Positions 47,282 through 64,000 of a stretch of 64,000 nucleotides of DNA are shown piece by piece. The notes beneath the pieces were generated by a model that saw nothing but the letters and a program-made list of their open reading frames with translations, did no database searches and had not been told where the DNA came from. Both the position numbers and the translations under genes were made by a program. The DNA is taken from positions 620,001 through 684,000 of the forward strand of contig NZ_CP150918.1 in assembly GCF_039908635.1 (NCBI RefSeq). The letters are read 5' to 3'. Origin of the DNA: Pseudomonas purpurea. GTDB lineage: Bacteria > Pseudomonadota > Gammaproteobacteria > Pseudomonadales > Pseudomonadaceae. Position 1 is the stretch's first letter. Each line of letters begins with the position of its first letter.

Positions 47282-49588
47282 ATGCAAGCAGCCAAGCCGT
47301 TATTTGACTATCCGAAATACTGGGCCGAATGTTTCGGGCCAGCGCCATTCCTGCCGATGAGCAGGGAGGAGATGGATCAGCTCGGCTGGGACTCCTGCGA
47401 CATCATCATTGTCACCGGTGATGCGTACGTCGACCACCCGTCGTTCGGCATGGCAATCATCGGCCGGCTGCTGGAGTCCCAGGGCTTTCGCGTCGGGATC
47501 ATTGCCCAGCCAAACTGGCAGTCCAAAGACGACTTCATGAAGCTCGGCGAGCCGAACCTGTTCTTCGGCGTCGCGGCCGGCAACATGGATTCGATGATCA
47601 ACCGTTACACCGCCGACAAGAAAATCCGTTCCGATGACGCCTACACCCCCGGTGGCATGGCAGGCAAACGTCCGGATCGCGCAAGCCTGGTTTACAGCCA
47701 GCGCTGCAAGGAAGCCTACAAGAACGTGCCGATTGTGCTGGGTGGCATCGAAGCTTCCCTGCGCCGCATTGCGCACTACGATTACTGGCAGGACCGGGTG
47801 CGTAACTCGATCCTGATCGACGCCTGCGCCGACATTCTGCTGTACGGCAACGCCGAGCGTGCGATTGTCGAGGTCGCCCAGCGCCTGTCCTACGGTCACA
47901 AGATCGAAGACATCACCGACGTGCGCGGCACCGCGTTCATTCGTCGTGACACGCCCAAAGACTGGTACGAAGTCGACTCCACGCGCATCGACCGTCCGGG
48001 CAAGGTCGACAAGATCATCAACCCGTACGTCAACACCCAAGACACCCAGGCCTGTGCCATCGAACAGGAGAAGGGACCGGTTGAGGATCCGCAGGAAGCC
48101 AAGGTCGTGCAGATCCTGGCCAGCCCACGGATGACCCGCGACAAGACCGTGATTCGCCTGCCGTCGGTAGAAAAAGTCCGTGGCGATGCGGTGCTTTACG
48201 CTCACGCCAACCGTGTGCTTCACCTGGAAACCAACCCGGGCAACGCCCGTGCGCTGGTTCAGAAGCACGGCGAGGTCGACGTCTGGTTCAACCCGCCGCC
48301 GATTCCGATGACCACCGAAGAAATGGACTACGTGTTCGGCATGCCGTACGCCCGTGTTCCGCACCCTGCGTATGGCAAGGAGAAGATCCCGGCCTACGAC
48401 ATGATCCGCTTCTCGGTGAACATCATGCGCGGCTGCTTCGGCGGCTGTACCTTCTGCTCGATCACCGAGCACGAAGGCCGGATCATCCAGAACCGTTCCG
48501 AAGAGTCGATCATTCGCGAAATCGAAGAGATCCGCGACAAAGTCCCGGGTTTCACCGGCGTGATCTCCGACCTCGGCGGCCCGACCGCGAACATGTACCG
48601 CATCGCCTGCAAGACGCCGGAAATCGAATCCGCGTGCCGCAAGCCTTCCTGCGTGTTCCCCGGCATCTGCCCGAACCTGAACACCGACCACTCGTCGCTG
48701 ATTCAGTTGTATCGCAGTGCTCGCGCCCTGCCGGGTGTGAAGAAAATCCTGATCGCTTCCGGCCTGCGTTACGACCTCGCGGTCGAGTCGCCGGAGTACG
48801 TCAAAGAGCTGGTGACTCACCACGTCGGTGGTTACCTGAAGATCGCCCCGGAACACACCGAGGAAGGTCCGCTCAACCAGATGATGAAGCCGGGCATTGG
48901 CAGCTATGACAAGTTCAAGCGCATGTTCGAGAAGTACACCAAGGAAGCCGGGAAAGAGCAGTACTTGATTCCGTACTTCATCGCCGCTCACCCGGGCACC
49001 ACCGACGAAGACATGATGAACCTGGCCCTGTGGCTCAAGGGCAACGGTTTCCGTGCGGACCAGGTGCAGGCGTTCTATCCGTCGCCGATGGCCACCGCCA
49101 CCGCGATGTACCACTCGGGCAAGAACCCGCTGCGTAAGGTGACTTACAAGAGCGACGCGGTGACCATCGTCAAGAGCGAAGAGCAGCGTCGTCTGCACAA
49201 GGCGTTCTTGCGTTACCACGACCCGAAAGGCTGGCCGATGCTGCGTGAAGCGCTGATCCGCATGGGCCGTGCCGAGCTGATCGGGCCGGGCAAGGACCAG
49301 TTGATTCCGCTGCACCAACCGTCTACCGACAGCTACCAGAGCGCCCGTCGCAAGAACTCGACGCCCGCCGGTAGCCATAAAGTGGCCGGGAAGGAAAAGA
49401 CCACCAAGATCCTCACCCAGCACACCGGCCTGCCGCCGCGTGCCAGTGACGGTGGCAACCCGTGGGACAAGCGTGAACAGGCCAAGGCTGCGGCGTTCGC
49501 CCGTAACCAGCAGGCCGCCAAGGAGCGCAAGGACGCTGCCAAAGGCAAAGGGCCGAAGCCGGCGCGTAAACCGGTCGTGCCGCGTTAA
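47282..49588 (+). CDS. ygiQ: Radical SAM protein YgiQ (UPF0313)
   Basis: A 768-residue radical SAM protein. The iron-sulfur motif CFGGCTFC fits CxxxCxxC and lies near residue 383 in [18 protein letters not shown]. An N-terminal domain of about 350 residues precedes it, and the C-terminal 80 residues are basic and low complexity ([17 protein letters not shown]). A downstream cysteine pair in [15 protein letters not shown] may bind an additional cluster. The substrate is not known. ATG 47282 begins [19 protein letters not shown]. It appears to be a single-gene unit between terminators and REPINs. Confidence 0.93.
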
Positions 49589-49635: not shown

Positions 49636-49659
49636 GCGTTCTGCGCAGTGATGAATACC

Positions 49660-49792
49660 TGTGGCGAGGGAGCTTGCTCCCGCTGGGGCGCGAAGCGGCC
49701 CTGAAATCAGGCGATGAATTTCGCCAGTAGGAATGTGCACGCCGGGTTTACGACTGCTATGCAGCCGAGCGGGAGCAAGCTCCCTCGCCACA
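49660..49792. repeat. REPIN, TGTGGCGAGG type
   Basis: Inward pair of REP arms with a spacer of about 85 bases, between the ygiQ terminator and the sigma-54 promoter region. It is the longest of this subtype together with the one at 2097. Confidence 0.85.
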
Positions 49793-49857
49793 GAGGTGGC
49801 CCCCGATCGACTTACCGCCACATTTCTGTGCAACCCTCTTCGCCGAAAATCCTGCGT

Positions 49858-49874
49858 TGCGCGGTTTTGGTGCT
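49858..49874 (+). promoter_or_regulatory. Candidate NtrC binding site
   Basis: TGCGCGGTTTTGGTGCT matches 12 of 17 positions of the NtrC enhancer consensus TGCACTATATTGGTGCA, with only one mismatch in each conserved half (TGCGC and TTGGTGCT). Its centre is about 77 bases upstream of the start predicted from the adjacent sigma-54 promoter. Confidence 0.5.
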
Positions 49875-49916
49875 GTACTGCGCTAAGCAATTGAAGAAAA
49901 CGCCGCAGATGCCGGA

Positions 49917-49931
49917 TGGCATAAGTCTTGC
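49917..49931 (+). promoter_or_regulatory. Sigma-54 (RpoN) promoter
   Basis: TGGCATAAGTCTTGC follows the -24/-12 form TGGCACG-N4-TTGC, with the GG and GC elements separated by exactly 10 bases and two mismatches at positions 6 and 7. It lies 39 bases upstream of the GTG start of the transglutaminase/amidoligase gene. Confidence 0.65.
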
Positions 49932-49970
49932 GCGCGTTCATTCACGCTTGAGGCTCGCAGGAGGCACGCC

Positions 49971-52900
49971 GTGTCGATTCATGTCGCATTGCACCATGTC
50001 ACGCATTACCTCTACGACCGTGCGGTCGAACTCGGCCCGCAGATCGTTCGCCTGCGCCCGGCGGCCCATAGCCGCACGCGGATCTTGTCTTATGCGCTGA
50101 AGGTCACGCCTGAGCAGCATTTCATCAATTGGCAGCAAGACCCTCAGGGCAACTACCTGGCGCGGCTGGTGTTCCCGGAAAAAGCCGATGAGCTGCGGAT
50201 CGAAGTCGACCTGCTGGCCGAGATGGCCGTGTTCAATCCGTTCGACTTTTTCCTTGAGCCCTACGCGGAAAAAATCCCCTTCGCCTATGCCCCGGACGAA
50301 CAGCGTGAACTGGCGCCGTACCTCGAAATCCTGCCACTGACACCAACCTTCAAGGCCTATCTGGACAGCATTGACCGTACGCCGCTGCCCGCCGTGGATT
50401 TTCTGGTGGCACTGAACCAGCGCCTGAGCGAAGACATTGCGTACCTGATCCGCATGGAGCCGGGCGTTCAAACCCCGGAATACACCCTGCAACAGGCCTC
50501 GGGTTCCTGCCGCGACTCGGCCTGGTTGCTGGTGCAATTGCTGCGCAACCTCGGGCTGGCAGCGCGGTTTGTCTCGGGTTACCTGATTCAGCTCACCGCC
50601 GACGTCAAAAGCCTCGACGGTCCCTCAGGCACCGAGGTAGATTTCACCGACCTGCACGCCTGGTGCGAAGTCTACTTGCCGGGCGCGGGCTGGATCGGCC
50701 TGGATGCTACGTCTGGGCTGTTTGCCGGTGAAGGGCATATTCCGTTGGCCTGTAGTCCCGATCCGTCCTCTGCGGCGCCGATCAGTGGCTTGGTTGAACC
50801 GTGCGAGTGCGAGTTCACCCATGAAATGTCGGTCGAGCGGATTTGGGAAGCCCCGCGGGTGACCAAGCCATACACCGAAGAACAATGGCTGGCGATCCAG
50901 GCACTGGGCCGGCAGATCGATGCCGACCTGCTGGAAGGCGATGTCCGGCTGACCATGGGCGGCGAGCCGACCTTCGTGTCTATCGACGACCCGGACGGCG
51001 CCGAGTGGAACACCGCAGCCCTTGGGCCGGACAAACGTCGGCTGTCGGCCGAACTGTTCCAGCGCATGCGCAACCATTACGCGCCTAAAGGCCTGGTGCA
51101 TTTTGGTCAGGGCAAGTGGTACCCCGGCGAGCAACTGCCGCGCTGGTCGCTCAACTGTTACTGGCGCCGCGACGGGGTGCCGATCTGGCACAACAGCGCG
51201 CTGATAGCCGACGAGCAGGAAGATTACGGCGCCGACGGTGCACTGGCCGGGCGTTTTCTGGCGAGTGTCGCCGAGCGCTTGAAGCTGCCCACGCGTTTTG
51301 TGTTTCCAGCCTACGAAGACAACTTCTATTACCTATGGCGAGAGGGCGCGTTGCCGGTCAACGTCAGCGCCGAAGACTCACGGCTGGGCGATGAACTGGA
51401 GCGTGCGCGGCTGCGTAAAGTCTTCAGCCAGGGGCTGGATAAGGTGATCGGCCAGGTCCTGCCGCTGGCACGCACCGCCAAGGGTGATCAATGGCAGAGC
51501 GGTCGCTGGTATTTGCGTGACAGCCATTGCCGCTTGGTGCCGGGGGACTCGCCACTGGGCTATCGCTTGCCACTGGCCTCGCAGCCCTGGGTGACGGCGG
51601 CGGAATATCCGTTTGTGCATCCCGCCGACCCGAATCAGGATTTCCCGGCGCTGCCGGACGCGGCTCGCTTGCAGGCCCATGGTGAGCCGGCCAGCGCCGA
51701 GGAGCGTGTGCCGACAGCCGAGGAGTCCGCCGACTGGCTGACCCGCACCGCGTTGTGCGCCGAGGCGCGGGAAGGGCGGTTGTACCTGTTCATGCCGCCA
51801 CTGGAACGGGTCGAGGATTATCTGGAACTGGTCATCGCCATCGAGGCCACCGCCCAAGAGCTGCGCTGCCCGGTGTTGCTGGAAGGCTACGAGCCGCCGA
51901 GCGACCCGCGCCTGAGCAACTTGCGCATTACCCCGGACCCCGGCGTGATCGAGGTCAACGTCCAGCCCTCGGCCAGTTGGGACGAGTTGGTGGAGCGCAC
52001 CGAATTTCTCTACGAAGAAGCACGCCAGACGCGGCTGACCACCGAGAAATTCATGATCGACGGCCGACATACGGGCACCGGCGGCGGTAACCATTTCGTA
52101 CTGGGTGGCGCGACACCGGCCGACTCACCGTTTCTGCGCCGTCCCGACCTGCTGCGCAGCCTGATCAGCTATTGGCATAACCACCCGTCGTTGTCCTACC
52201 TTTTTTCCGGACTGTTCATCGGCCCGACGTCCCAGGCGCCAAGGGTCGACGAGGCGCGCAACGATGCGCTCTATGAGCTGGAAATTGCCTTCGCGCAAAT
52301 GCCTGAGCCGGGTGAAGAGTGCGCGCCGTGGCTGGTCGATCGGTTGCTGCGCAACCTGCTGATCGACGTCACCGGCAACACCCACCGCGCCGAGTTCTGC
52401 ATCGACAAACTCTATTCGCCGGACGGTGCCACCGGGCGCCTTGGTTTGTTGGAACTGCGCGCCTTCGAAATGCCGCCCCACGCGCGCATGAGCCTGACGC
52501 AGCAGTTGCTGCTGCGGGCGTTGGTGGCGAGGTTCTGGCGCGAGCCGTATGCCCCGCCCAAACTCGCCCGTTGGGGCACTGAGTTGCATGACCGCTTCCT
52601 GCTGCCGCACTTTATCGAACAGGACTTTGCCGACGTGATCGTCGAGCTCAATAACGCCGGTTATGCGGTACGCGCCGAATGGTTTGCGGCTCATCTGGAG
52701 TTCCGTTTTCCCAAGGTTGGCGATTACGCGGTCAGCGGCATCGAGCTGCAATTGCGTCAGGCCCTGGAGCCTTGGCATGTGCTGGGCGAAGAAGGCACGG
52801 CGGGCGGCACGGTGCGTTACGTCGATTCATCGCTTGAGCGCTTTCAGGTCAAACTCACCGGGCTGCCACCGCAGCGGTATCTGCTGACCTGCAACGGCAT

Positions 52901-53345
52901 CCCGGTGCCGCTGCAACCGACCGGGCGGGTGGGGGAATTCGTGGCCGGCGTGCGCTTTCGTGCCTGGCAACCGGCCAACTGCCTGCAACCGACCATCGCG
53001 GTGCATGCGCCGCTGGTGTTCGATGTGCTCGACACCTGGATGCAGCGCTCGCTGGGCGGTTGCCAGTACCACGTCGCCCATCCGGGCGGGCGCAATTATG
53101 ACAGCCTGCCAGTGAACGCCAACGAGGCCGAGAGCCGACGCATGGCGCGGTTTTTCCGTCTCGGTCACAGCCCGGGAACCGTGGTAGTGCCGACGCTGAT
53201 CATCAACGACGAACTGCCGATGACCTTGGATTTGCGCCGGTTTGCGATAAAAATGAGTGAACACGGTACTGCAACAACGGATATCCAATGTGGGAACGGG
53301 CTTGCTCGCGATGGCGTTACAACAGTCAATATTGATGCTGACTGA
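49971..53345 (+). CDS. Transglutaminase-DUF2126 amidoligase protein
   Basis: A 1124-residue protein. Residues 1-300 form a transglutaminase-like domain with a Cys-His-Asp triad: SCRDSAW (Cys about 178), DLHAWCEV and LDATSGLF. Residues from about 320 form the DUF2126/COG4196 domain, a predicted glutamine-synthetase-like amidoligase (RLTMGGEPTFVSIDDPDGAE). GTG 49971 has AGGAGG 49959-49964. The final 18 residues (CGNGLARDGVTTVNIDAD) are encoded by a REPIN arm at 53289-53342, so the natural C-terminus probably is near residue 1106. First gene of the island behind the sigma-54 promoter; the role (peptide or amide bond modification) is inferred from domain types only. Confidence 0.85.
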   Translation: MSIHVALHHVTHYLYDRAVELGPQIVRLRPAAHSRTRILSYALKVTPEQHFINWQQDPQGNYLARLVFPEKADELRIEVDLLAEMAVFNPFDFFLEPYAEKIPFAYAPDEQRELAPYLEILPLTPTFKAYLDSIDRTPLPAVDFLVALNQRLSEDIAYLIRMEPGVQTPEYTLQQASGSCRDSAWLLVQLLRNLGLAARFVSGYLIQLTADVKSLDGPSGTEVDFTDLHAWCEVYLPGAGWIGLDATSGLFAGEGHIPLACSPDPSSAAPISGLVEPCECEFTHEMSVERIWEAPRVTKPYTEEQWLAIQALGRQIDADLLEGDVRLTMGGEPTFVSIDDPDGAEWNTAALGPDKRRLSAELFQRMRNHYAPKGLVHFGQGKWYPGEQLPRWSLNCYWRRDGVPIWHNSALIADEQEDYGADGALAGRFLASVAERLKLPTRFVFPAYEDNFYYLWREGALPVNVSAEDSRLGDELERARLRKVFSQGLDKVIGQVLPLARTAKGDQWQSGRWYLRDSHCRLVPGDSPLGYRLPLASQPWVTAAEYPFVHPADPNQDFPALPDAARLQAHGEPASAEERVPTAEESADWLTRTALCAEAREGRLYLFMPPLERVEDYLELVIAIEATAQELRCPVLLEGYEPPSDPRLSNLRITPDPGVIEVNVQPSASWDELVERTEFLYEEARQTRLTTEKFMIDGRHTGTGGGNHFVLGGATPADSPFLRRPDLLRSLISYWHNHPSLSYLFSGLFIGPTSQAPRVDEARNDALYELEIAFAQMPEPGEECAPWLVDRLLRNLLIDVTGNTHRAEFCIDKLYSPDGATGRLGLLELRAFEMPPHARMSLTQQLLLRALVARFWREPYAPPKLARWGTELHDRFLLPHFIEQDFADVIVELNNAGYAVRAEWFAAHLEFRFPKVGDYAVSGIELQLRQALEPWHVLGEEGTAGGTVRYVDSSLERFQVKLTGLPPQRYLLTCNGIPVPLQPTGRVGEFVAGVRFRAWQPANCLQPTIAVHAPLVFDVLDTWMQRSLGGCQYHVAHPGGRNYDSLPVNANEAESRRMARFFRLGHSPGTVVVPTLIINDELPMTLDLRRFAIKMSEHGTATTDIQCGNGLARDGVTTVNIDAD

Positions 53346-53378
53346 GCCACCGCTATCGCGAGCAAGCTCGCTCCCACA
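53289..53378. repeat. REPIN overlapping gene end
   Basis: A 90-bp inward pair of TGTGGGAGCG-type arms. The left arm and part of the spacer (53289-53345) supply the last 18 codons and stop of the DUF2126 gene, and the right arm lies in the gap before the ATP-grasp gene. Confidence 0.9.
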
Positions 53379-53477
53379 AGGATCTCCACGGTTGTTCACT
53401 TTGGGCAAGCCCCACACACTAGATGTGCAGCGTTTGTGAGTTAACCTGCCTTTTAATTAGCTTCTGCCGAGCGTTCC

Positions 53478-55964
53478 ATGCCTGATCTGCTTGATCGTTA
53501 CCCGCTCACGGCGGGCACTTATCATGAACTGCTCGATGACAGTGGCGCGGTGCGCCCGCACTGGCAGCGGTTGTTCGATCACTTGCAGCGCAGCACGCCT
53601 GCGCAACGGGTGCAGCGGCAAGCCTTGCTGGCCCGGCAGATCCAGGAAAACGGTGTGACCTACAACGTCTACGCCGACCCCAAAGGCGCCGACCGGTCGT
53701 GGGAGCTGGACCTGTTGCCCCATGTGATCGCGGCGCACGAGTGGCAGCAGTTGTCGGCCGGGATTGCGCAACGGGCGCGTTTGCTCAACGCGGTACTCGC
53801 GGACCTGTACGGCCCGCAGCGGCTGATCGCTGAAGGATTGTTGCCGGCCGAACTGGTGTTCGGGCACAACAACTTTTTATGGCCGTGCCAGGGTATTCAA
53901 CCACCGGACGGCGCGTTCCTGCATCTGTACGCGGTGGACCTGGCGCGTACCCCCGACGGGCGCTGGTGGGTTACCGCCGACCGGACCCAGGCGCCATCCG
54001 GTGCGGGTTATGCGCTGGAAAACCGCACCATCGTGTCGCGGGCCTTTCCCGAGTTGTATCGCGACCTGAAGGTGCAACACCTGGCGGGTTTTTTCCGCAC
54101 CTTGCAGGAAACCCTCGCCCGCCAGGCGTCGACCGATGACGAAGCACCGCTGGTGGTGGTGCTGACACCGGGGCGGTTCAACGAGAGCTATTTCGAACAC
54201 CTGTACCTGGCGCGCCAACTCGGTTATCCGCTGGTCGAGGGCGGTGACCTGACTGTGCGCAATGCCACGGTCTACCTCAAGACCCTGAGCGGTCTGCGCC
54301 GGGTCCACGCGATCATGCGTCGACTCGACGACGATTTCTGCGACCCGCTGGAGTTGCGCACCGACTCGGCGCTGGGGGTGCCGGGCTTGCTGGAAGCGGT
54401 GCGCCAGGGGCGGGTGCTGGTGGCCAATGCCTTGGGCAGCGGTGTGCTGGAGTCGCCGGGACTGTTGGGGTTTCTGCCGCGGATCAATCAGTTTCTGTTC
54501 GGTGAAGAACTGATCCTGCCGTCGATTGCCACCTGGTGGTGTGGGGAAGCGCCGGTGCTGACGCAGGCGCTGGAAAAACTGCCCGAGTTGCTGATCAAAC
54601 CAGCATTTGCATCGCAAAGTTTTGCCCCGGTGTTGGGCCGCGATCTGAGTGAGGTGCAGCGTCAAAGGTTGGCGGAACGCATACAGGCTCGGCCTTACGC
54701 CTACGTCGCGCAGGAATTGGCGCAGTTGTCCCTGGCACCGGTCTGGCAGGCCGAAGGCGGCCAGTTGCAGCCACGGGCCATTGGCATGCGCGTCTACGCC
54801 GTGGCCAGCCGGGACGGTTATCGGGTGCTGCCCGGCGGCTTGACCCGGGTGGCGGCCGAGGTCGACGCCGAAGTGGTGTCGATGCAACGCGGCGGTGCGA
54901 GCAAGGACACCTGGGTACTGGGCGACCGCGCGCCCAGTGGCGAGCAATGGAAAAGCCAACGCACCCTCGGGGTCCACGATCTGGTGCGCCGTGATCCGTA
55001 CCTGCCGTCGCGGGTGGTGGAGAACCTGTTCTGGTTCGGCCGTTATTGCGAACGGTGCGACGACAGTGCGCGGCTGCTGAGGATCATGCTTGCGCGTTAC
55101 GTTGACGGGGACGATCCACACGCCTTGCAGGCGGCGGTCGAGCTTGGTGAAAGCCTGATGCTGCTGCCTGACGAAGGCGAGTTGCCCGAGCGATTGCTGG
55201 CGGCGTTGCTCGGCGATGAGGGGTCGTTCAGCCTGCGTTCCAACCTGCAACGCTTGCAGTGGGCGGCGTCTCAGGTGCGCGGCAAGCTCTCGCGGGAGAA
55301 CTGGCAGGCGCTGGTGGAGTTGCAGCGCGAAGCCATGGCGCTGGACACCGAGGCGCCGGATTTCGGCGAGTTGCTGGATTTTCTCAACCGTCTGGTGATG
55401 TCGCTGGCGGCGCTGTCCGGGTTCGCGCTGGATGACATGACCCGCGACGAAGGCTGGCGCTTCTTGATGATGGGGCGGCGGATCGAGCGTTTGCAGTTTC
55501 TGAGCAGCAGCCTGGCGGCGTTTTTGCGCGGTGCCGGGGCGTTTGATCAGGCGACGCTGGAGTGGCTGCTGGAACTGGGTAACAGCAGCATCACCTACCG
55601 CTCGCGGTATCTGGCGATGGCGCAGTTGATTCCGGTGCTCGACCTGCTCCTGCTTGATGAGCAGAACCCCCACGCGGTGTTGTTCCAGTTGAAACTGGTG
55701 ACCCGCACCCTCAAGCGTTTGAACGACGATTTCGGTGCACCCCGGGACACTGTCCTGCCGCACTTGGTGGAACGTCTGGCGCATGTAGACCTGCGATGCC
55801 TGGAGAATTCGCTGTTCGGCGAAACCAGCATCAGTGCGGCGCTGGCGGGCCTGGCGGATCTGTTGCAGGACATCGCAGATGCCAGCGGCCAAGTCTCGGA
55901 TCGGCTGGCGTTGCGGCATTTCGCCCATGTCGATGATGTCAGCCAGCGCACGGTGTCGGTCTGA
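53478..55964 (+). CDS. Circularly permuted ATP-grasp/alpha-E protein
   Basis: An 828-residue fusion. Residues 1-500 are a circularly permuted ATP-grasp domain (DUF404/DUF407 type: GGDLTVRNATVYLKT near 255, then LLIKPAFASQSFAPVLGR near 375 and PRAIGMRVYAVA near 435), which would use ATP to join an acyl group to an amine. Residues about 510-820 are the alpha-E (DUF403) helical domain (VVENLFWFGRYCERCDDSAR). The stop overlaps the next start (TGATG). In other bacteria such genes travel with transglutaminases and sometimes with an Anbu-type proteasome; Anbu is not in this window. Substrates are not known. Confidence 0.88.
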   Translation: MPDLLDRYPLTAGTYHELLDDSGAVRPHWQRLFDHLQRSTPAQRVQRQALLARQIQENGVTYNVYADPKGADRSWELDLLPHVIAAHEWQQLSAGIAQRARLLNAVLADLYGPQRLIAEGLLPAELVFGHNNFLWPCQGIQPPDGAFLHLYAVDLARTPDGRWWVTADRTQAPSGAGYALENRTIVSRAFPELYRDLKVQHLAGFFRTLQETLARQASTDDEAPLVVVLTPGRFNESYFEHLYLARQLGYPLVEGGDLTVRNATVYLKTLSGLRRVHAIMRRLDDDFCDPLELRTDSALGVPGLLEAVRQGRVLVANALGSGVLESPGLLGFLPRINQFLFGEELILPSIATWWCGEAPVLTQALEKLPELLIKPAFASQSFAPVLGRDLSEVQRQRLAERIQARPYAYVAQELAQLSLAPVWQAEGGQLQPRAIGMRVYAVASRDGYRVLPGGLTRVAAEVDAEVVSMQRGGASKDTWVLGDRAPSGEQWKSQRTLGVHDLVRRDPYLPSRVVENLFWFGRYCERCDDSARLLRIMLARYVDGDDPHALQAAVELGESLMLLPDEGELPERLLAALLGDEGSFSLRSNLQRLQWAASQVRGKLSRENWQALVELQREAMALDTEAPDFGELLDFLNRLVMSLAALSGFALDDMTRDEGWRFLMMGRRIERLQFLSSSLAAFLRGAGAFDQATLEWLLELGNSSITYRSRYLAMAQLIPVLDLLLLDEQNPHAVLFQLKLVTRTLKRLNDDFGAPRDTVLPHLVERLAHVDLRCLENSLFGETSISAALAGLADLLQDIADASGQVSDRLALRHFAHVDDVSQRTVSV

Positions 55965-56854
55965 TGAGCGCCCGTTACCAGATTCTCCACGACACCCATT
56001 ATCACTACGACAGCCCGGTGTCCCTGGCTCAGCAGTTGGCCCATTTGTGGCCCAGGGCCTGCGACTGGCAGCGATGCACCGAGCAACAGTTACAGATCAG
56101 CCCGGTGCCGACCTCGCGTCGCGATGAGCTGGACGTGTTCGGTAACCCGCTGACCCGGCTGGCGTTCGAGCGACCTCACGATGAATTGCTGGTCAATGCA
56201 CGATTGACGGTCGAGGTGCTGGCCCGGCCGCGGCTCGATTTCAGTCGGTCGCCGGCCTGGGATGTGTCCGGTCGTGCGTTGAGCTACAGCGGCCAAGCCA
56301 TGCCCCCGGCATTTCTAGAGGCTTGCCGCTATCGATTCGAATCACCTTACGTGCACTTGAAGCGCGGCTTCGTCGAGTTCTCTGAACGCTGTTTTGCGCC
56401 GGGGCGGCCGTTGATGCTCGGGGTTCAGGCGCTGATGGAGAAGATTTTCAGCGAGTTCACCTTCGATGCCGAAGCCACGCAGGTCGCGACGCCGCTGGTG
56501 GAAGTGCTCGAGCGTCGGCGTGGCGTGTGTCAGGACTTTGCGCACCTGATGCTGGCGTGCGTGCGTTCCCGAGGATTGGCGGCGCGGTATGTCAGCGGTT
56601 ACCTGCTGACTCAGCCACCACCGGGGCAGCCACGGCTGATTGGCGCGGATGCGTCCCATGCCTGGGTGTCGGTGTTTTGCCCGGTGCTTGGGTGGGTCGA
56701 CTTTGATCCGACCAACAACGTACAACCGGCGCTGGAGCACATCACGCTGGCCTGGGGCCGGGACTTTTCCGATGTCTCGCCGTTGCGCGGGGTGATCCTG
56801 GGCGGTGGTAGCCATGACCCGGAAGTGCGGGTGACAGTCATGCCTCTGGAGTAA
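55964..56854 (+). CDS. Transglutaminase-family protein
   Basis: A 296-residue transglutaminase-like protein. An N-terminal beta domain (YQILHDTHYHYDSPVSLAQQ) precedes the papain-like catalytic core with RRGVCQDFAHLML (Cys about 188), ADASHAWVSVF (His about 226) and GWVDFDPTNN (Asp about 241), a complete triad. It may hydrolyse or transfer amide bonds. It is the third gene of the island and overlaps the ATP-grasp/alpha-E gene by one base, so equal expression is likely. A REPIN and a GC-rich hairpin follow. Confidence 0.9.
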   Translation: MSARYQILHDTHYHYDSPVSLAQQLAHLWPRACDWQRCTEQQLQISPVPTSRRDELDVFGNPLTRLAFERPHDELLVNARLTVEVLARPRLDFSRSPAWDVSGRALSYSGQAMPPAFLEACRYRFESPYVHLKRGFVEFSERCFAPGRPLMLGVQALMEKIFSEFTFDAEATQVATPLVEVLERRRGVCQDFAHLMLACVRSRGLAARYVSGYLLTQPPPGQPRLIGADASHAWVSVFCPVLGWVDFDPTNNVQPALEHITLAWGRDFSDVSPLRGVILGGGSHDPEVRVTVMPLE

Positions 56855-58822: not shown

Positions 58823-58948
58823 CCGCTGGTCGGAAATCAGCGCTTACCTGTTATTTCTGACAGTAGGCAGTGCCCATGAGCCCGGTATTAGATGGCGTCA
58901 TCGTTGCCCGTCAACTTGCGGCGACACCGCCGAGACAGGAGATCGCTC
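58823..58948 (+). promoter_or_regulatory. Duplicated leader of first Ig-like gene
   Basis: This leader is repeated at 61753-61878 with few changes. It contains a small hairpin (CTGGT and ATCAG around CGGAA, 58826-58840), a CT-N12-AG palindrome CTGTTATTTCTGACAG at 58848-58863 that resembles a lux-type box, and an AGGAG ribosome site before ATG 58949. Regulator identity is not known. Confidence 0.4.
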
Positions 58949-61432
58949 ATGACCGTTCAAGTCACCGCTCCCGCAAAACGCCTTGCCCTACCGGATCCTC
59001 TTCCGCCACTGACCGTCAAGCAGGCCCCGGATAACCAAAACCTGGACCCGTTGCGGGTTGATCGCGACGAAGCATTGACAGCAGAAATCCCGACGGAAGG
59101 GCTTGAAAGCACTGACCAGTTTTATATCGACGTCGTGGGGGCGCCGGGCACGCACCCCGACGCTTCGTACACGCTGGGGCCCATCCCCCTGGGCGGTGTG
59201 AGACCGCGAGAAGTGAACCTGCGCGCAAGCATCGTTGCCCTGCTGTTGAAAAAATTGGTGACCCTGAGCTACAGAATCGTGCGTGGGGCGCAGGAGAAAC
59301 CCTCCGAGCCACTGGAGCTGAGGGTTTCAGCCCTTGAAGTGAAGGTGCCGGTCGCACGGATCCTGGAGGCGCAGGGCAACGGTCATGGCTTTGAACTGGA
59401 CCTGACCTCCGGCACCCGTGACCTGACCGCACGGCTGGATCGCTGGCCCTTGCTCGCAAAAGATCAATTAGTCTGGGTGACCCTCAAGGGGAAGGATGCC
59501 GAAGGGAACGACCACATCCTGGCCCTGTTGGCGCCACCGGCGGGCACGGTCAGCCAGCGCTGGGAGGATCTGGGCTATCACGAACTCCCGATAGACCGTG
59601 GCTACCTGGCGAAGCTGGGAAACAGCACGACGCTGATCATCGAACAGCGGGTTGCATGTGACCGGGTGAATGACGCAGACGCGGCAGTCGTCTTTGCGGA
59701 CCGGACCTATACCGTTAAAACTATTGCGGTCGTGAAACCCGAGATCACCTCCGTGAAGGATTCGGCGGGTCAGGACGTCGCGGATAACGGCACAACCACA
59801 GACACCACACTGACCCTGCGCGGCACGGTTGAGTTGGGTAAAAAAGTCGAAATTCATGACGGCAACGTTTGGCGGGAAGGAACCACGACCGGGGTGAACT
59901 GGACGTACGAGGCCAGTGGCTTGAGCGCGAAAACCTATGCCTTCAAGGCCCGGGTGGTGGGCAGCACTGCGGAGTCAAATACCTGGACCGTGACCGTGCA
60001 AGCGGCGCAGGTGGCCCCGATTATTACAGGTATGAAGGATTCGGCAGGTCAGGACGTCGCGGATAACGGCACAACCACAGACACCACACTGACCCTGCGC
60101 GGCACGGTTGAGTCGGGTAAAAAAGTCGAAATTCATGACGGCAATGCTTGGCGGGAAGGAACCACGACCGGGATCAACTGGACGTACGAGGCCAGTGGCT
60201 TGAGCGCGAAAACCTATGCCTTCAAGGCCCGGGTGGTGGGCAGCACTGCGGAGTCAAATACCTGGACCGTGACCGTGCAAGCGGCGCAGGTGGCCCCGAT
60301 TATTACAGGTATGAAGGATTCGGCAGGTCAGGACGTAGCGGATAACGGCACAACCACAGACACCACGCTGACCCTGCGCGGCACGGTTGAGTCGGGTAAA
60401 AAAGTCGAAATTCATGACGGCAATACTTGGCGGGAAGGGACCACGACCGGGATCAACTGGACGTACGAGGCCAGTGGCTTGAGCGCGAAAACCTATGCCT
60501 TCAAGGCCCGGGTGGTGGGCAGCACTGCGGAGTCAAATACCTGGACCGTGACCGTGCAAGCGGCGCAGGTGGCCCCGATTATTACAGGTATGAAGGATTC
60601 GGCAGGTCAGGACGTCGCGGATAACGGCACAACCACAGACACCACACTGACCCTGCGCGGCACGGTTGAGTCGGGTAAAAAAGTCGAAATTCATGACGGC
60701 AATGCTTGGCGGGAAGGAACCACGACCGGGATCAACTGGACGTACGAGGCCAGTGGCTTGAGCGCGAAAACCTATGCCTTCAAGGCCCGGGTGGTGGACA
60801 GCACTGCGGAGTCAAATACCTGGACCGTGACTGTAGAAACCGCTTCGGACGGGAAGTTGGCGATCATCCAAATCATCGACGCCCTGGGTAACGAGATCTA
60901 TCGTGGAGGTGCCACAACATTCGCGGCGGCCACGTCCATTACCCTCAAGGGTACGGCAGTACCTGAGGCCAGAGTCTCGGTTTTCGACGTGTTCGACCTT
61001 ATTGACACCCAACCCGCCCGGAAGTCAGGGCGCTGGACGATGACCCTCAGTGCGTTGAAACAGAAGTCTTACAACTTTGCCATCAGCGCTTCCGGTGCCG
61101 ATTCTCCTGCGCTTTGGCCATTGAGCATCATGGCGGACGGAACGCCCATTATCGGTTTGGTGATGGATAAAAAGGGGCAAGTCATTGCGCCTTACGGCGA
61201 GACCTACGAGCAGGTCTTCACGCTCTCGGGCCAGGGAACGGCGAACGGCAGCATCAAGGTTCATGAGTTGCTCGGCGATACATCAGTCACTGTTGTCGTC
61301 AATGCGCAAGGACGGTGGGAGCACGAAGTGAGCGTAGCGTCCCCCCGTGAGTATCACTACGTGGCTTCAGCGCCAGAGGCGGGTTCAGTGAAGTCAAACC
61401 TGTGGCGTGTGCGCGTCGTGAAGCAGCCCTGA
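58949..61432 (+). CDS. Ig-like repeat protein, paralogue 1
   Basis: An 827-residue protein with no signal peptide. Residues 1-255 form a unique domain (MTVQVTAPAKRLALPDPLPP..), repeated almost exactly in paralogue 2. Then come four 93-residue Ig-like units (DNA period 279 bp, units starting near 59756, 60035, 60314 and 60593) with the pattern KDSAGQDVADNGTTTDTTL and ending in WTVTVQAAQ. Two more diverged units follow (to 61432). The family looks like Pseudomonas proteins of repeated Ig-like beta domains, possibly surface or toxin-associated; no secretion signal, RTX or anchor is seen, so the export route is open. Confidence 0.75.
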   Translation: MTVQVTAPAKRLALPDPLPPLTVKQAPDNQNLDPLRVDRDEALTAEIPTEGLESTDQFYIDVVGAPGTHPDASYTLGPIPLGGVRPREVNLRASIVALLLKKLVTLSYRIVRGAQEKPSEPLELRVSALEVKVPVARILEAQGNGHGFELDLTSGTRDLTARLDRWPLLAKDQLVWVTLKGKDAEGNDHILALLAPPAGTVSQRWEDLGYHELPIDRGYLAKLGNSTTLIIEQRVACDRVNDADAAVVFADRTYTVKTIAVVKPEITSVKDSAGQDVADNGTTTDTTLTLRGTVELGKKVEIHDGNVWREGTTTGVNWTYEASGLSAKTYAFKARVVGSTAESNTWTVTVQAAQVAPIITGMKDSAGQDVADNGTTTDTTLTLRGTVESGKKVEIHDGNAWREGTTTGINWTYEASGLSAKTYAFKARVVGSTAESNTWTVTVQAAQVAPIITGMKDSAGQDVADNGTTTDTTLTLRGTVESGKKVEIHDGNTWREGTTTGINWTYEASGLSAKTYAFKARVVGSTAESNTWTVTVQAAQVAPIITGMKDSAGQDVADNGTTTDTTLTLRGTVESGKKVEIHDGNAWREGTTTGINWTYEASGLSAKTYAFKARVVDSTAESNTWTVTVETASDGKLAIIQIIDALGNEIYRGGATTFAAATSITLKGTAVPEARVSVFDVFDLIDTQPARKSGRWTMTLSALKQKSYNFAISASGADSPALWPLSIMADGTPIIGLVMDKKGQVIAPYGETYEQVFTLSGQGTANGSIKVHELLGDTSVTVVVNAQGRWEHEVSVASPREYHYVASAPEAGSVKSNLWRVRVVKQP
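59756..60836 (+). repeat. Four 279-bp tandem repeats
   Basis: Four head-to-tail copies of 279 bp inside the first Ig-like gene, starting at 59756, 60035, 60314 and 60593. Copies 2 to 4 differ from each other at only a handful of positions. They encode 93-residue Ig-like units. Confidence 0.95.
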
Positions 61433-61878: not shown

Positions 61879-64000
61879 ATGACCGTTCAAGTCACCGCTC
61901 CCGCAAAACGCCTTGCCCTACCGGATCCTCTTCCGCCACTGACCGTCAAGCAGGCCCCGGATAACCAAAACCTGGACCCGTTGCGGGTTGATCGCGACGA
62001 AGCATTGACAGCAGAAATCCCGACGGAAGGGCTTGAAAGCACTGACCAGTTTTATATCGACGTCGTGGGGGCGCCGGGCACGCACCCCGACGCTTCGTAC
62101 ACGCTGGGGCCCATCCCCCTGGGCGGTGTGAGACCGCGAGAAGTGAACCTGCGCGCAAGCATCGTTGCCCTGCTGTTGAAAAAATTGGTGACCCTGAGCT
62201 ACAGAATCGTGCGTGGGGCGCAGGAGAAACCCTCCGAGCCACTGGAGCTGAGGGTTTCAGCCCTTGAAGTGAAGGTGCCGGTCGCACGGATCCTGGAGGC
62301 GCAGGGCAACGGTCATGGCTTTGAACTGGACCTGACCTCCGGCACCCGTGACCTGACCGCACGGCTGGATCGCTGGCCCTTGCTCGCAAAAGATCAATTA
62401 GTCTGGGTGACCCTCAAGGGGAAGGATGCCGAAGGGAACGACCACATCCTGGCCCTGTTGGCGCCACCGGCGGGCACGGTCAGCCAGCGCTGGGAGGATC
62501 TGGGCTATCACGAACTCCCGATAGACCGTGGCTACCTGGCGAAGTTGGGACACGACACGACGCTGACCATCGAACAGCGGGTTGCATGTGACCGGGTGAA
62601 TGACGCAGACGCGGCAGTCGTCTTTGCGGATCGGATCTACGCCGTAAAAAACTATAAGCTTGCCATCACCAAGGTGACAGACTCCCAGGACAGGCTTGTT
62701 GCCGATGAAAGTGAAACCACCGACACCACGCTGAAGCTGGAGGGCACAGCGCAGAAAGGGGCCCGCGTCGACATTTATGTCGGGCCGGATGTGGTTGCCA
62801 CGGATGTAGCCGTAGACGGGAAGTGGAAGGCCGAGCTGAGCGGGTTGACTCTCAACACCCATGTCATCAAGGCTGTCGCGGGCGGGCAGGACTCCAATAT
62901 CTGGAGCGTCACCGTAGCGCTACGCGAACCAGCGGTAAAAGAAGCCAATGGCAGTGCCAGCCTGAATCCGGTCGACGCAGTGACAGAACTGACCGTGATT
63001 GTGCCTGGGACCTTGCTGCCGCAGGCCCTGCTCAGTGTTAGCTGGGCAGGTGCAGCAGGCACACCTGACGGGGGGTCGCATGCCACTGTGCCGGCAGAGG
63101 TGAGCACCATCGGCCAAGCCATCAAGATGCCGGTGTCGATGATTGCCTTTAACCTGGGCACAACGGTCACGGTGACGTACACCGTGACCCAGCATGGCAC
63201 CTCGCAAACCTCGGAACCGTTGACGCTTGCAGTCGAGCGGCTGCCAGAGACTGCGCTAAAAAAGCCTGTGATAACGCAAGCATCGGACAGTGGCGAAGGC
63301 ACTGAATGGGATGTCACGGATCTGACGGCTAATGGCACCGTGAGAGCCTACAGTTGCCCACATATGGCTGTAGGGCCAATACCTGTGGCTGCGTTTGAGG
63401 GGTAGAACAACGGCCGGTGGCGAATACGACAAGATTATCTGGAAAGCGCCAGGGGCGTACGTCAACCAAACGATGATCAACGTAGGCTATTTCGACGTTT
63501 CGTGGCTGCCGCTCAGTGAGATGCAGGCACTGATGCATGGCAGCGACTTGCACGTCGAGCTCAAAGTGGCTCTTGGGCGGGATCCGGATGAAAACCTGGC
63601 AGTGGTTTACCCGTTGCGTACCTACACCATTCTGAAAATTGCTATTACCCGGGTGACAGACTCTGAAGGGAGTGAGGTGGGCAACGGGGGCACAACCACG
63701 GACACCACGCTGAACCTCTCGGGCACGGTGACCAAGGGGAGTGACGTCGACATCTATAATGGCGAGACTCGGTTGGGTAGGGCTACGCCGACCGAGACCG
63801 GGTGGGAGTATGAGGCGAGTGGTCTCCAGGACAAAACCTATACCTTCGAGGCTTGGATTGTGGGCAGTGGGTTCTGGTCAGATGCCTGGACCGTTACCGT
63901 GCAAGCCCCTCAAGGGCACGGCAGCATCCAGGGCGAATGTCTCGGTGTCTGACGTATTTGACCTTCTTGGCACCGAAACAGTCCGCGACACCGGGCACTG
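61879..64000 (+). pseudogene. Ig-like repeat protein, paralogue 2, partial, frameshifted
   Basis: The N-terminal domain is almost identical to paralogue 1 (identical DNA for the first 666 bp), followed by Ig-like units of other sequence (LAITKVTDSQDRLVADE.., then a second diverged copy of the N-terminal-type domain and an Ig unit ending WTVTVQA). One extra G at AGGGCC 63373-63375 shifts the frame; repair gives MAVGQYLWLRLRGRTTAGGE, which parallels AKDQLVWVTLKGKDAEGN in the N-domain. As written the first frame stops at 63403-63405. A second shift near 63905 joins a WTVTVQA end to LKGTAASRANVSVSDVFDLL, with about 35 residues missing relative to paralogue 1, then the gene leaves the window. Confidence 0.7.

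Follow-up and report, generated by a model that had tools for sequence, protein, structure and literature searches.

The three-gene island examined in the window (the whole 64,000-nucleotide stretch of Pseudomonas purpurea DNA analysed here) appears to be a nitrogen-starvation-induced, intracellular module that makes and cuts amide bonds and works together with a second operon of the same genome; we give this reading a probability of roughly 0.6. Its predicted nitrogen control through NtrC and sigma54 is well supported by the conservation of the promoter. The ATP-grasp, Alpha-E, transglutaminase (TG) and DUF2126 gene set has been the subject of predictions since 2008-2009, no demonstrated function was found for it in the literature, and of 398 genomes sampled from the phylum, 120 carry DUF2126. 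The conserved nitrogen-starvation promoter names a condition in which the product of the gene set can be sought, and the role of a widespread enzyme set thereby becomes testable through the predicted switch. The elements of the island are:

49816-49832, + strand: NtrC-like site B, CGCCACATTTCTGTGCA, 8 of 12 consensus letters
49858-49874, + strand: NtrC-like site A, TGCGCggtttTGGTGCT / TGCGCGGTTTTGGTGCT, 9 of 12 consensus letters
49917-49931, + strand: sigma54-type -24/-12 element, TGGCATAAGTCTTGC, GG-N10-GC with TGGC and TTGC cores
49971-53345, + strand: gene 1, TG domain fused to DUF2126, GTG start
53478-55964, + strand: gene 2, circularly permuted (CP) ATP-grasp fused to Alpha-E
55964-56854, + strand: gene 3, second transglutaminase-like protein

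The ORF coordinates and Pfam matches bear out the three genes described in an earlier, sequence-only reading of this DNA. Gene 1 matches Bact_transglu_N, Transglut_core and DUF2126, gene 2 CP_ATPgrasp_2/CP_ATPgrasp_1 and Alpha-E, and gene 3 Bact_transglu_N and Transglut_core, so that CP-ATP-grasp, Alpha-E and TG are encoded together. Genes 1 and 2 are separated by 132 bp, while the stop of gene 2 is overlapped by the start of gene 3. The last 32 or so codons of gene 1 (1093-1124) extend beyond the usual end in its relatives and enter a REP-like repeat.

The -24/-12 element occurs once in the window, with 39 bp between its end and the GTG start codon of gene 1 (49971), exactly as had been claimed; transcription would start near 49943. 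The pattern TGGC-N-Y-N5-TTGC has five matches in the window and 341 in the 5.93-Mb genome (200 + 141, against 38 + 61 when the pattern is read backwards), and since it is this common a single match proves little and conservation decides. Within the genus, 108 matches were obtained, of which 90 had their upstream regions fetched (18 did not) and 89 could be anchored. The element is kept in 87 of these 89 upstreams, 52-55 bp before the start, and the exact 15-mer TGGCATAAGTCTTGC in 82, with variable flanks. The two upstreams that lack it (L097 and L098) belong to copies of 60 and 61% identity, and in the one fetched upstream left out of the anchored set (L078) the element is nonetheless visible. 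A lack of GG-N10-GC conservation in orthologues had been named beforehand as refuting; this test was run, and the idea was not refuted. A chance match to the pattern was considered as a candidate and ruled out by this conservation. A sigma54-like site also precedes 24 of 24 named Pseudomonas operon heads, compared with 3 of 24 in the reverse-strand control, and an rpoN gene is present in the genome.

Promoters activated by NtrC carry sites of the TGCACC-N5-GGTGCA type upstream, often in tandem. Site A is the best NtrC-like match in the 317-nt upstream region. It is the site already proposed from sequence, although its distance from the -24/-12 element is 42 bp and not the 43 bp given then. Site B, which is new here and additional to site A, is the second-best match in the same region and lies 42 bp above site A. 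In 72 non-redundant genus upstreams, conservation peaks at two offsets relative to the -24 T, near -100 (site B) and at -58 to -61 (site A); the site B peak was reached by none of 296 randomly permuted palindromes, and neither fixed-offset peak was reached by permuted palindromes. NtrC itself is encoded in the genome (TIGR01818, above cut-off, at 391563-392933).

A link between this enzyme set and nitrogen limitation is already known from three papers (PMC5491218, PMC7801951, PMC3325844). In Burkholderia cenocepacia H111, the genes of the cluster I35_5080-83 are down 8.2-, 9.4-, 9.4- and 6.0-fold when ntrC is mutated and nitrogen is limiting, and the cluster is counted there among the common targets of sigma54 and NtrC (PMC5491218). 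The cluster has the same families as the island, namely a DUF404/DUF407 ATP-grasp, a DUF403 Alpha-E, a TG and a large TG protein, but ATP-grasp and Alpha-E are separate genes, unlike the fused gene 2, and their numbers precede that of the large protein, an order shared with the second operon type of this genome. Because DUF2126 is not named for I35_5083 in the passages on this cluster (PMC5491218), we infer its orthology to gene 1 from its description and from how a Burkholderia locus (L234) is arranged. The sigma54/NtrC control put forward in the sequence-only reading is supported by the conserved sites together with the ntrC mutant data (PMC5491218). Phosphorylated NtrC would bind the tandem sites at 49816-49832 and 49858-49874 and activate sigma54 RNA polymerase at 49917-49931. 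This step, predicted from the conserved sites and shown by others for the like B. cenocepacia cluster, is very probably correct for the island.

The Anbu operon of P. putida, PP_2685-2688, is likewise described as induced under nitrogen limitation (PMC7801951, PMC3325844), and it has CP-ATP-grasp, Alpha-E and TG in common with the island (PMC7801951, PMC3325844, PMC6376114, PMC5666114); it contains Anbu, whereas DUF2126 is not described in it in the portions of these four papers that concern the operon. It is matched in this genome by a second CP-ATP-grasp/Alpha-E/TG operon, which has the same promoter design of sigma54 and NtrC-like sites. Among 30 loci of this second island, one (L282) lacks the element under the pattern used.

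The catalytic residues of the TG domains are intact. The complete Cys-His-Asp triad claimed for gene 3 holds up as C189-H232-D248, and in an alignment of 69 proteins each of these residues is conserved in 97% or more; the PDB relatives of this protein are 6g49 and 3isr. The TG domain of gene 1 has a triad as well (C180-H229-D245, invariant in 19 of 19 and in 37 of 37 aligned proteins), where none had been credited before. DUF2126 is predicted to have a glutamine synthetase (GS) fold; the mean pLDDT of the model is 72, and Foldseek alone finds GS chains at E 0.025 or weaker only. As fold and family suggest, both DUF2126 and the CP-ATP-grasp domain may use ATP to activate a carboxylate and couple it to an amine, so that a peptide or protein would acquire isopeptide or gamma-glutamyl-type conjugates, and the two TG-like domains, with their intact triads, would hydrolyse or transfer these amides. 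Judged by fold, family and triads, amide ligation combined with hydrolysis or transfer is probably the right class of chemistry.

Amine salvage would use the same chemistry differently: DUF2126 would be a gamma-glutamyl-amine synthetase, comparable to GmaS or to gamma-glutamylpolyamine synthetases, that is induced through NtrC so that amines can be taken up into metabolism as nitrogen sources, with the TG domains releasing glutamate. The NtrC-type promoter agrees with this, as do the nitrogen-scavenging roles of other gamma-glutamyl ligases and the predicted GS fold, to which the GmaS chains 7cql, 7cqw and 7cqn align with 16% identity, a value that no other GS match listed exceeds. However, 96 of 115 loci have the set TG-DUF2126, ATP-grasp-Alpha-E and TG, and such a pathway has no use for the second ligase or for Alpha-E. 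In addition, among the 25 largest clusters of neighbouring ORFs within 3 kb, most of which have no family-search identification, we saw no transporter, oxidase or dehydrogenase that recurs widely. We consider amine salvage unlikely.

A cycle like that of glutathionylspermidine, in which the ATP-grasp enzyme links a small peptide to a polyamine by an amide bond that the TG-like enzymes hydrolyse, so that the level of free polyamine is adjusted during nitrogen stress, is suggested by the sole strong PDB relative of gene 2, 3n6x (E 1.9e-94), deposited as a putative glutathionylspermidine synthase, and by the known logic of a synthetase paired with a papain-like amidase. The name of 3n6x is itself a prediction, and the cycle leaves the GS-like second ligase and Alpha-E unexplained. 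We regard it as improbable.

The sigma54 promoter might also be driven by an enhancer-binding protein other than NtrC, the NtrC-like letters being due to chance or to another use. Sigma54_activat matches are numerous in the genome (26 rows), and sites A and B are imperfect at 9/12 and 8/12, which counts against the NtrC reading. Outside Pseudomonas, a sigma54-like site precedes 50 of 79 operon heads in named loci (reverse-strand control 7/79). It is missing from the other 29 of the 79, among them the Serratia, Herbaspirillum and Marinobacter heads, which have none within 206 nt. In a separate set of the same class, 21 of 29 heads have such a site (control 1/29). Genomes sampled from the rest of the phylum do not rise above the control (4 of 46 in both), and the sigma54 route is therefore not universal. 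An NtrC-like match of at least 9 is absent from 38 of the 65 non-Pseudomonas upstreams with a sigma54-like site, so that another activator is possible there. For the island itself this is very improbable, given the two fixed-offset peaks that permuted palindromes did not reach, the ntrC mutant effect in B. cenocepacia (PMC5491218) and the same promoter design before an operon family that is nitrogen-induced in P. putida (PMC7801951, PMC3325844).

Most improbable is nitrogen storage, as proposed in the sequence-only reading, or a secreted peptide product, with the ligases making an amide-linked storage peptide: ligases and hydrolases, as indicated by the Pfam content, could make and mobilise a polymer, but induction is predicted at nitrogen shortage, when storing makes little sense, no pointer to a stored product was found, and the 25 largest neighbour clusters (a scope that excludes small precursor peptides) contain no recurrent export or precursor gene.

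Nitrogen recycling, the other role proposed from sequence, is one that the island may have. As a starvation-induced amide-bond module, it would act with the second operon and with peptidases (Peptidase_Mx and, in some lineages, Anbu) to turn over peptides or proteins and return nitrogen to the cell. This step, which we propose tentatively, is suggested by co-occurrence, by the promoter design common to both operons and by the peptidase genes that neighbour them in other species. In this genome Peptidase_Mx lies far from the island (2103389), no Anbu gene was seen adjoining either operon, and no proteasome-type Pfam match was found among the ORFs scanned after the TG-DUF2126 island; PF00227 has a single match in the genome, at 457094.

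A more ambitious version treats the two dispersed islands as one starvation system. The CP-ATP-grasp/Alpha-E/TG operon would make or attach a peptide tag, the TG-DUF2126 island would extend or edit it, and tagged proteins or peptides would be sent to Peptidase_Mx or Anbu, while the unvarying spacer ATAAGTC in the Pseudomonas promoter would carry a second control. The island would depend on the second operon, because among 108 genomes of the genus a single one has gene 1 but lacks the other ATP-grasp gene, and in that genome gene 1 is present as fragments only. If true, this would be a counterpart of ubiquitin or Pup tagging that serves nitrogen recycling; we regard it as distinctly unlikely.

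Iyer and colleagues reportedly predicted, in 2009, a CP-ATP-grasp / GS-like / Alpha-E / NTN-hydrolase system, with the same domain set and architecture as the island. The Rv2566 family of Mycobacterium tuberculosis combines TG with a GS-fold domain, the architecture of gene 1, with a function that is likewise a prediction; the passages on this family report no Pup-like small protein gene near it and give no promoter evidence, in contrast to the conserved sites found here (Iyer 2008, PMC2588565). In the present genome, a cytochrome-c-type gene follows the second operon.

The three-gene set and the -24/-12 element proposed in the sequence-only reading were both confirmed, the genes by their domain content and the element by its conservation, and the observation was extended (see below). 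The features of this region, in the window (620001-684000) of the 5.93 Mb genome, and the related second island elsewhere in that genome, are as follows.

47282-49588: radical-SAM gene, which we take to be of the YgiQ type, upstream of the REPIN-like repeat, the promoter and gene 1
49659-49793: REPIN-like inverted repeat (47-nt arms, 81% complementary), upstream of the promoter
49816-49832: candidate NtrC site B (8/12 consensus letters)
49858-49874: candidate NtrC site A (9/12 consensus letters)
49917-49931: -24/-12 element of sigma54 type
49971-53345, + strand: gene 1, TG_N, transglutaminase (TG) core and DUF2126
~53298-53380: REP-like repeat, overlapping the C-terminal extension of gene 1
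53478-55964, + strand: gene 2, circularly permuted (CP) ATP-grasp and Alpha-E
55964-56854, + strand: gene 3, second TG
~2.0036-2.0068 Mb of the genome: second island (L131), in which separate genes encode CP-ATP-grasp, Alpha-E and TG

The stretch 49655-49800, which holds the REPIN-like repeat, has a DNA fold z of -8.05. The closest named relative of gene 1 is from P. brassicacearum (95%; records of the source genome itself were possibly excluded). For most relatives the alignment stops at about residues 1090-1096 or continues only across a stop codon; the frame in the window carries approximately 32 additional C-terminal codons (53246-53345), entering the REP-like repeat.

The pattern TGGC-N-Y-N5-TTGC matches the genome at 341 places and its backward-read version at 99; the motif by itself is therefore weakly informative. 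Gene 1 is present in 108 of 149 genus genomes (E 1e-50 or better); upstream regions were fetched for 90 of these, and 89 of them were anchored to their start codon. The element lies 52-55 bp upstream of the start in 87 of the 89, as an identical 15-mer in 82, and is absent from the two belonging to 60- and 61%-identical gene 1 copies (L097, L098). Information content averages 1.96 bits per column inside the element, compared with 0.40 in the preceding 38 columns (-40 to -3). Both promoters were read in 12 genomes. Per genome pair, the 15-mer here differs by 1.21 letters (6 variants) and its second-island counterpart by 2.39 (11 variants), the latter differing more in 46 of the 66 pairs and less in 9. 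The spacer ATAAGTC seems to be held constant in Pseudomonas by more than the GG and GC.

NtrC recognizes the consensus TGCACC-N5-GGTGCA. Measured from the -24 T, its best fits across 72 non-redundant upstream regions fall at offsets of -58 to -61 and at -100 to -102, both peaks standing 3.5 to 3.9 standard deviations over the mean of about 280 offsets; none of 296 randomly permuted palindromes (repeats possible) attained either. The first peak is the offset of site A, the NtrC-like site noticed from sequence alone, and the second that of candidate site B, an addition, 42 bp or about four helical turns away. The upstream region of glnK, a standard NtrC target, has in this genome an NtrC-like match of similar quality (9/12) and a plain GG-N10-GC, with no match to the narrower -24/-12 pattern.

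The second island carries TGGCACGGGCCTTGC 34 bp upstream of its first start. A joint pattern derived from site A (NtrC half-sites, 30-60 bp, then -24/-12) has three matches in the genome. This island is one, by construction; the others are the second island and G000:C1:3986437-3986517 (L303). The backward-read control gave none. The second-island element is present in 29/30 close loci and in 20/20 divergent genus genomes, and in all of the latter the best NtrC-like match falls exactly at -68, scoring at least 9 in 19. As to the two single genes tabulated, gene 1 and the second-island ATP-grasp gene, both occur in 107 of the 149 genus genomes and neither in 22; 19 have only the ATP-grasp gene and one (G087) only gene 1, fragmented there (Fisher p 4e-14, kinship ignored). 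The two gene sets often adjoin in other species: in 53 of 115 loci the stretch fetched includes a gene whose best label is the second-island type, and in 96 the complete trio lies on a single strand.

Outside the genus, a sigma54-like site (score 10/12 or better, within 206 nt) was found in 39 of 53 named loci with an operon head, including Azoarcus, Zoogloea, Variovorax, Hydrogenophaga, Paraburkholderia, Burkholderia and Thiomonas, and not within that distance in, for example, Serratia, Herbaspirillum and Marinobacter. Counted by heads, 50/79 have the site, versus 7/79 when the same stretches are read on the opposite strand, and 2.35% of 20850 random windows. Further genomes of the same class gave 21/29 heads (control 1/29). 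In genomes of the phylum beyond the class, 4/46 equals the control (4/46), and the promoter is therefore not universal. Among 65 non-Pseudomonas upstream regions bearing the site, the NtrC-like match reaches 10/12 or better in 13, versus 1.8% of shuffles, and stays below 9 in 38. Three MAG contigs titled Verrucomicrobiota, Verrucomicrobia or Akkermansiaceae (L255, L257, L261) have -24/-12-like sites 31-45 bp upstream of the gene 1 start, which could mean that the cassette moved together with its promoter, or that the contigs were misbinned.

Predicted from this conservation, regulation of the island by NtrC and sigma54 is well supported; the further idea of a role in nitrogen storage is unsupported. 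In an ntrC mutant of B. cenocepacia H111 under nitrogen limitation, the cluster I35_5080-83 (DUF404/DUF407, DUF403, TG and a large TG protein) decreases 8.2-, 9.4-, 9.4- and 6.0-fold; it is counted among the shared sigma54 and NtrC targets (PMC5491218). P. putida PP_2685-2688, of the second-island operon family, are induced under nitrogen limitation (PMC7801951, PMC3325844). Two papers cite higher expression of Anbu, a proteasome-like protein of related operons, upon nitrogen limitation (PMC6376114, PMC5666114), one of them detecting no peptidase activity of Anbu on the substrates tested (PMC6376114). An association of these domains with urea metabolism domains in marine metagenomes is also noted (PMC3597751). 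No publication on the Pseudomonas DUF2126-island promoter was found in the open-licence literature. The predicted control would open a long-standing puzzle, the role of this gene set, to direct experiment.

Downstream of the island, an 846-aa ORF (58892-61432) contains a tandem repeat at 59754-60831 (279-bp unit, 3.9 copies at 98%) and is followed by a 508-aa ORF (61879-63405). The recurrence of a single 15-mer, at genome positions 678893, 681823 and 684351, suggests a series of large repeat genes.
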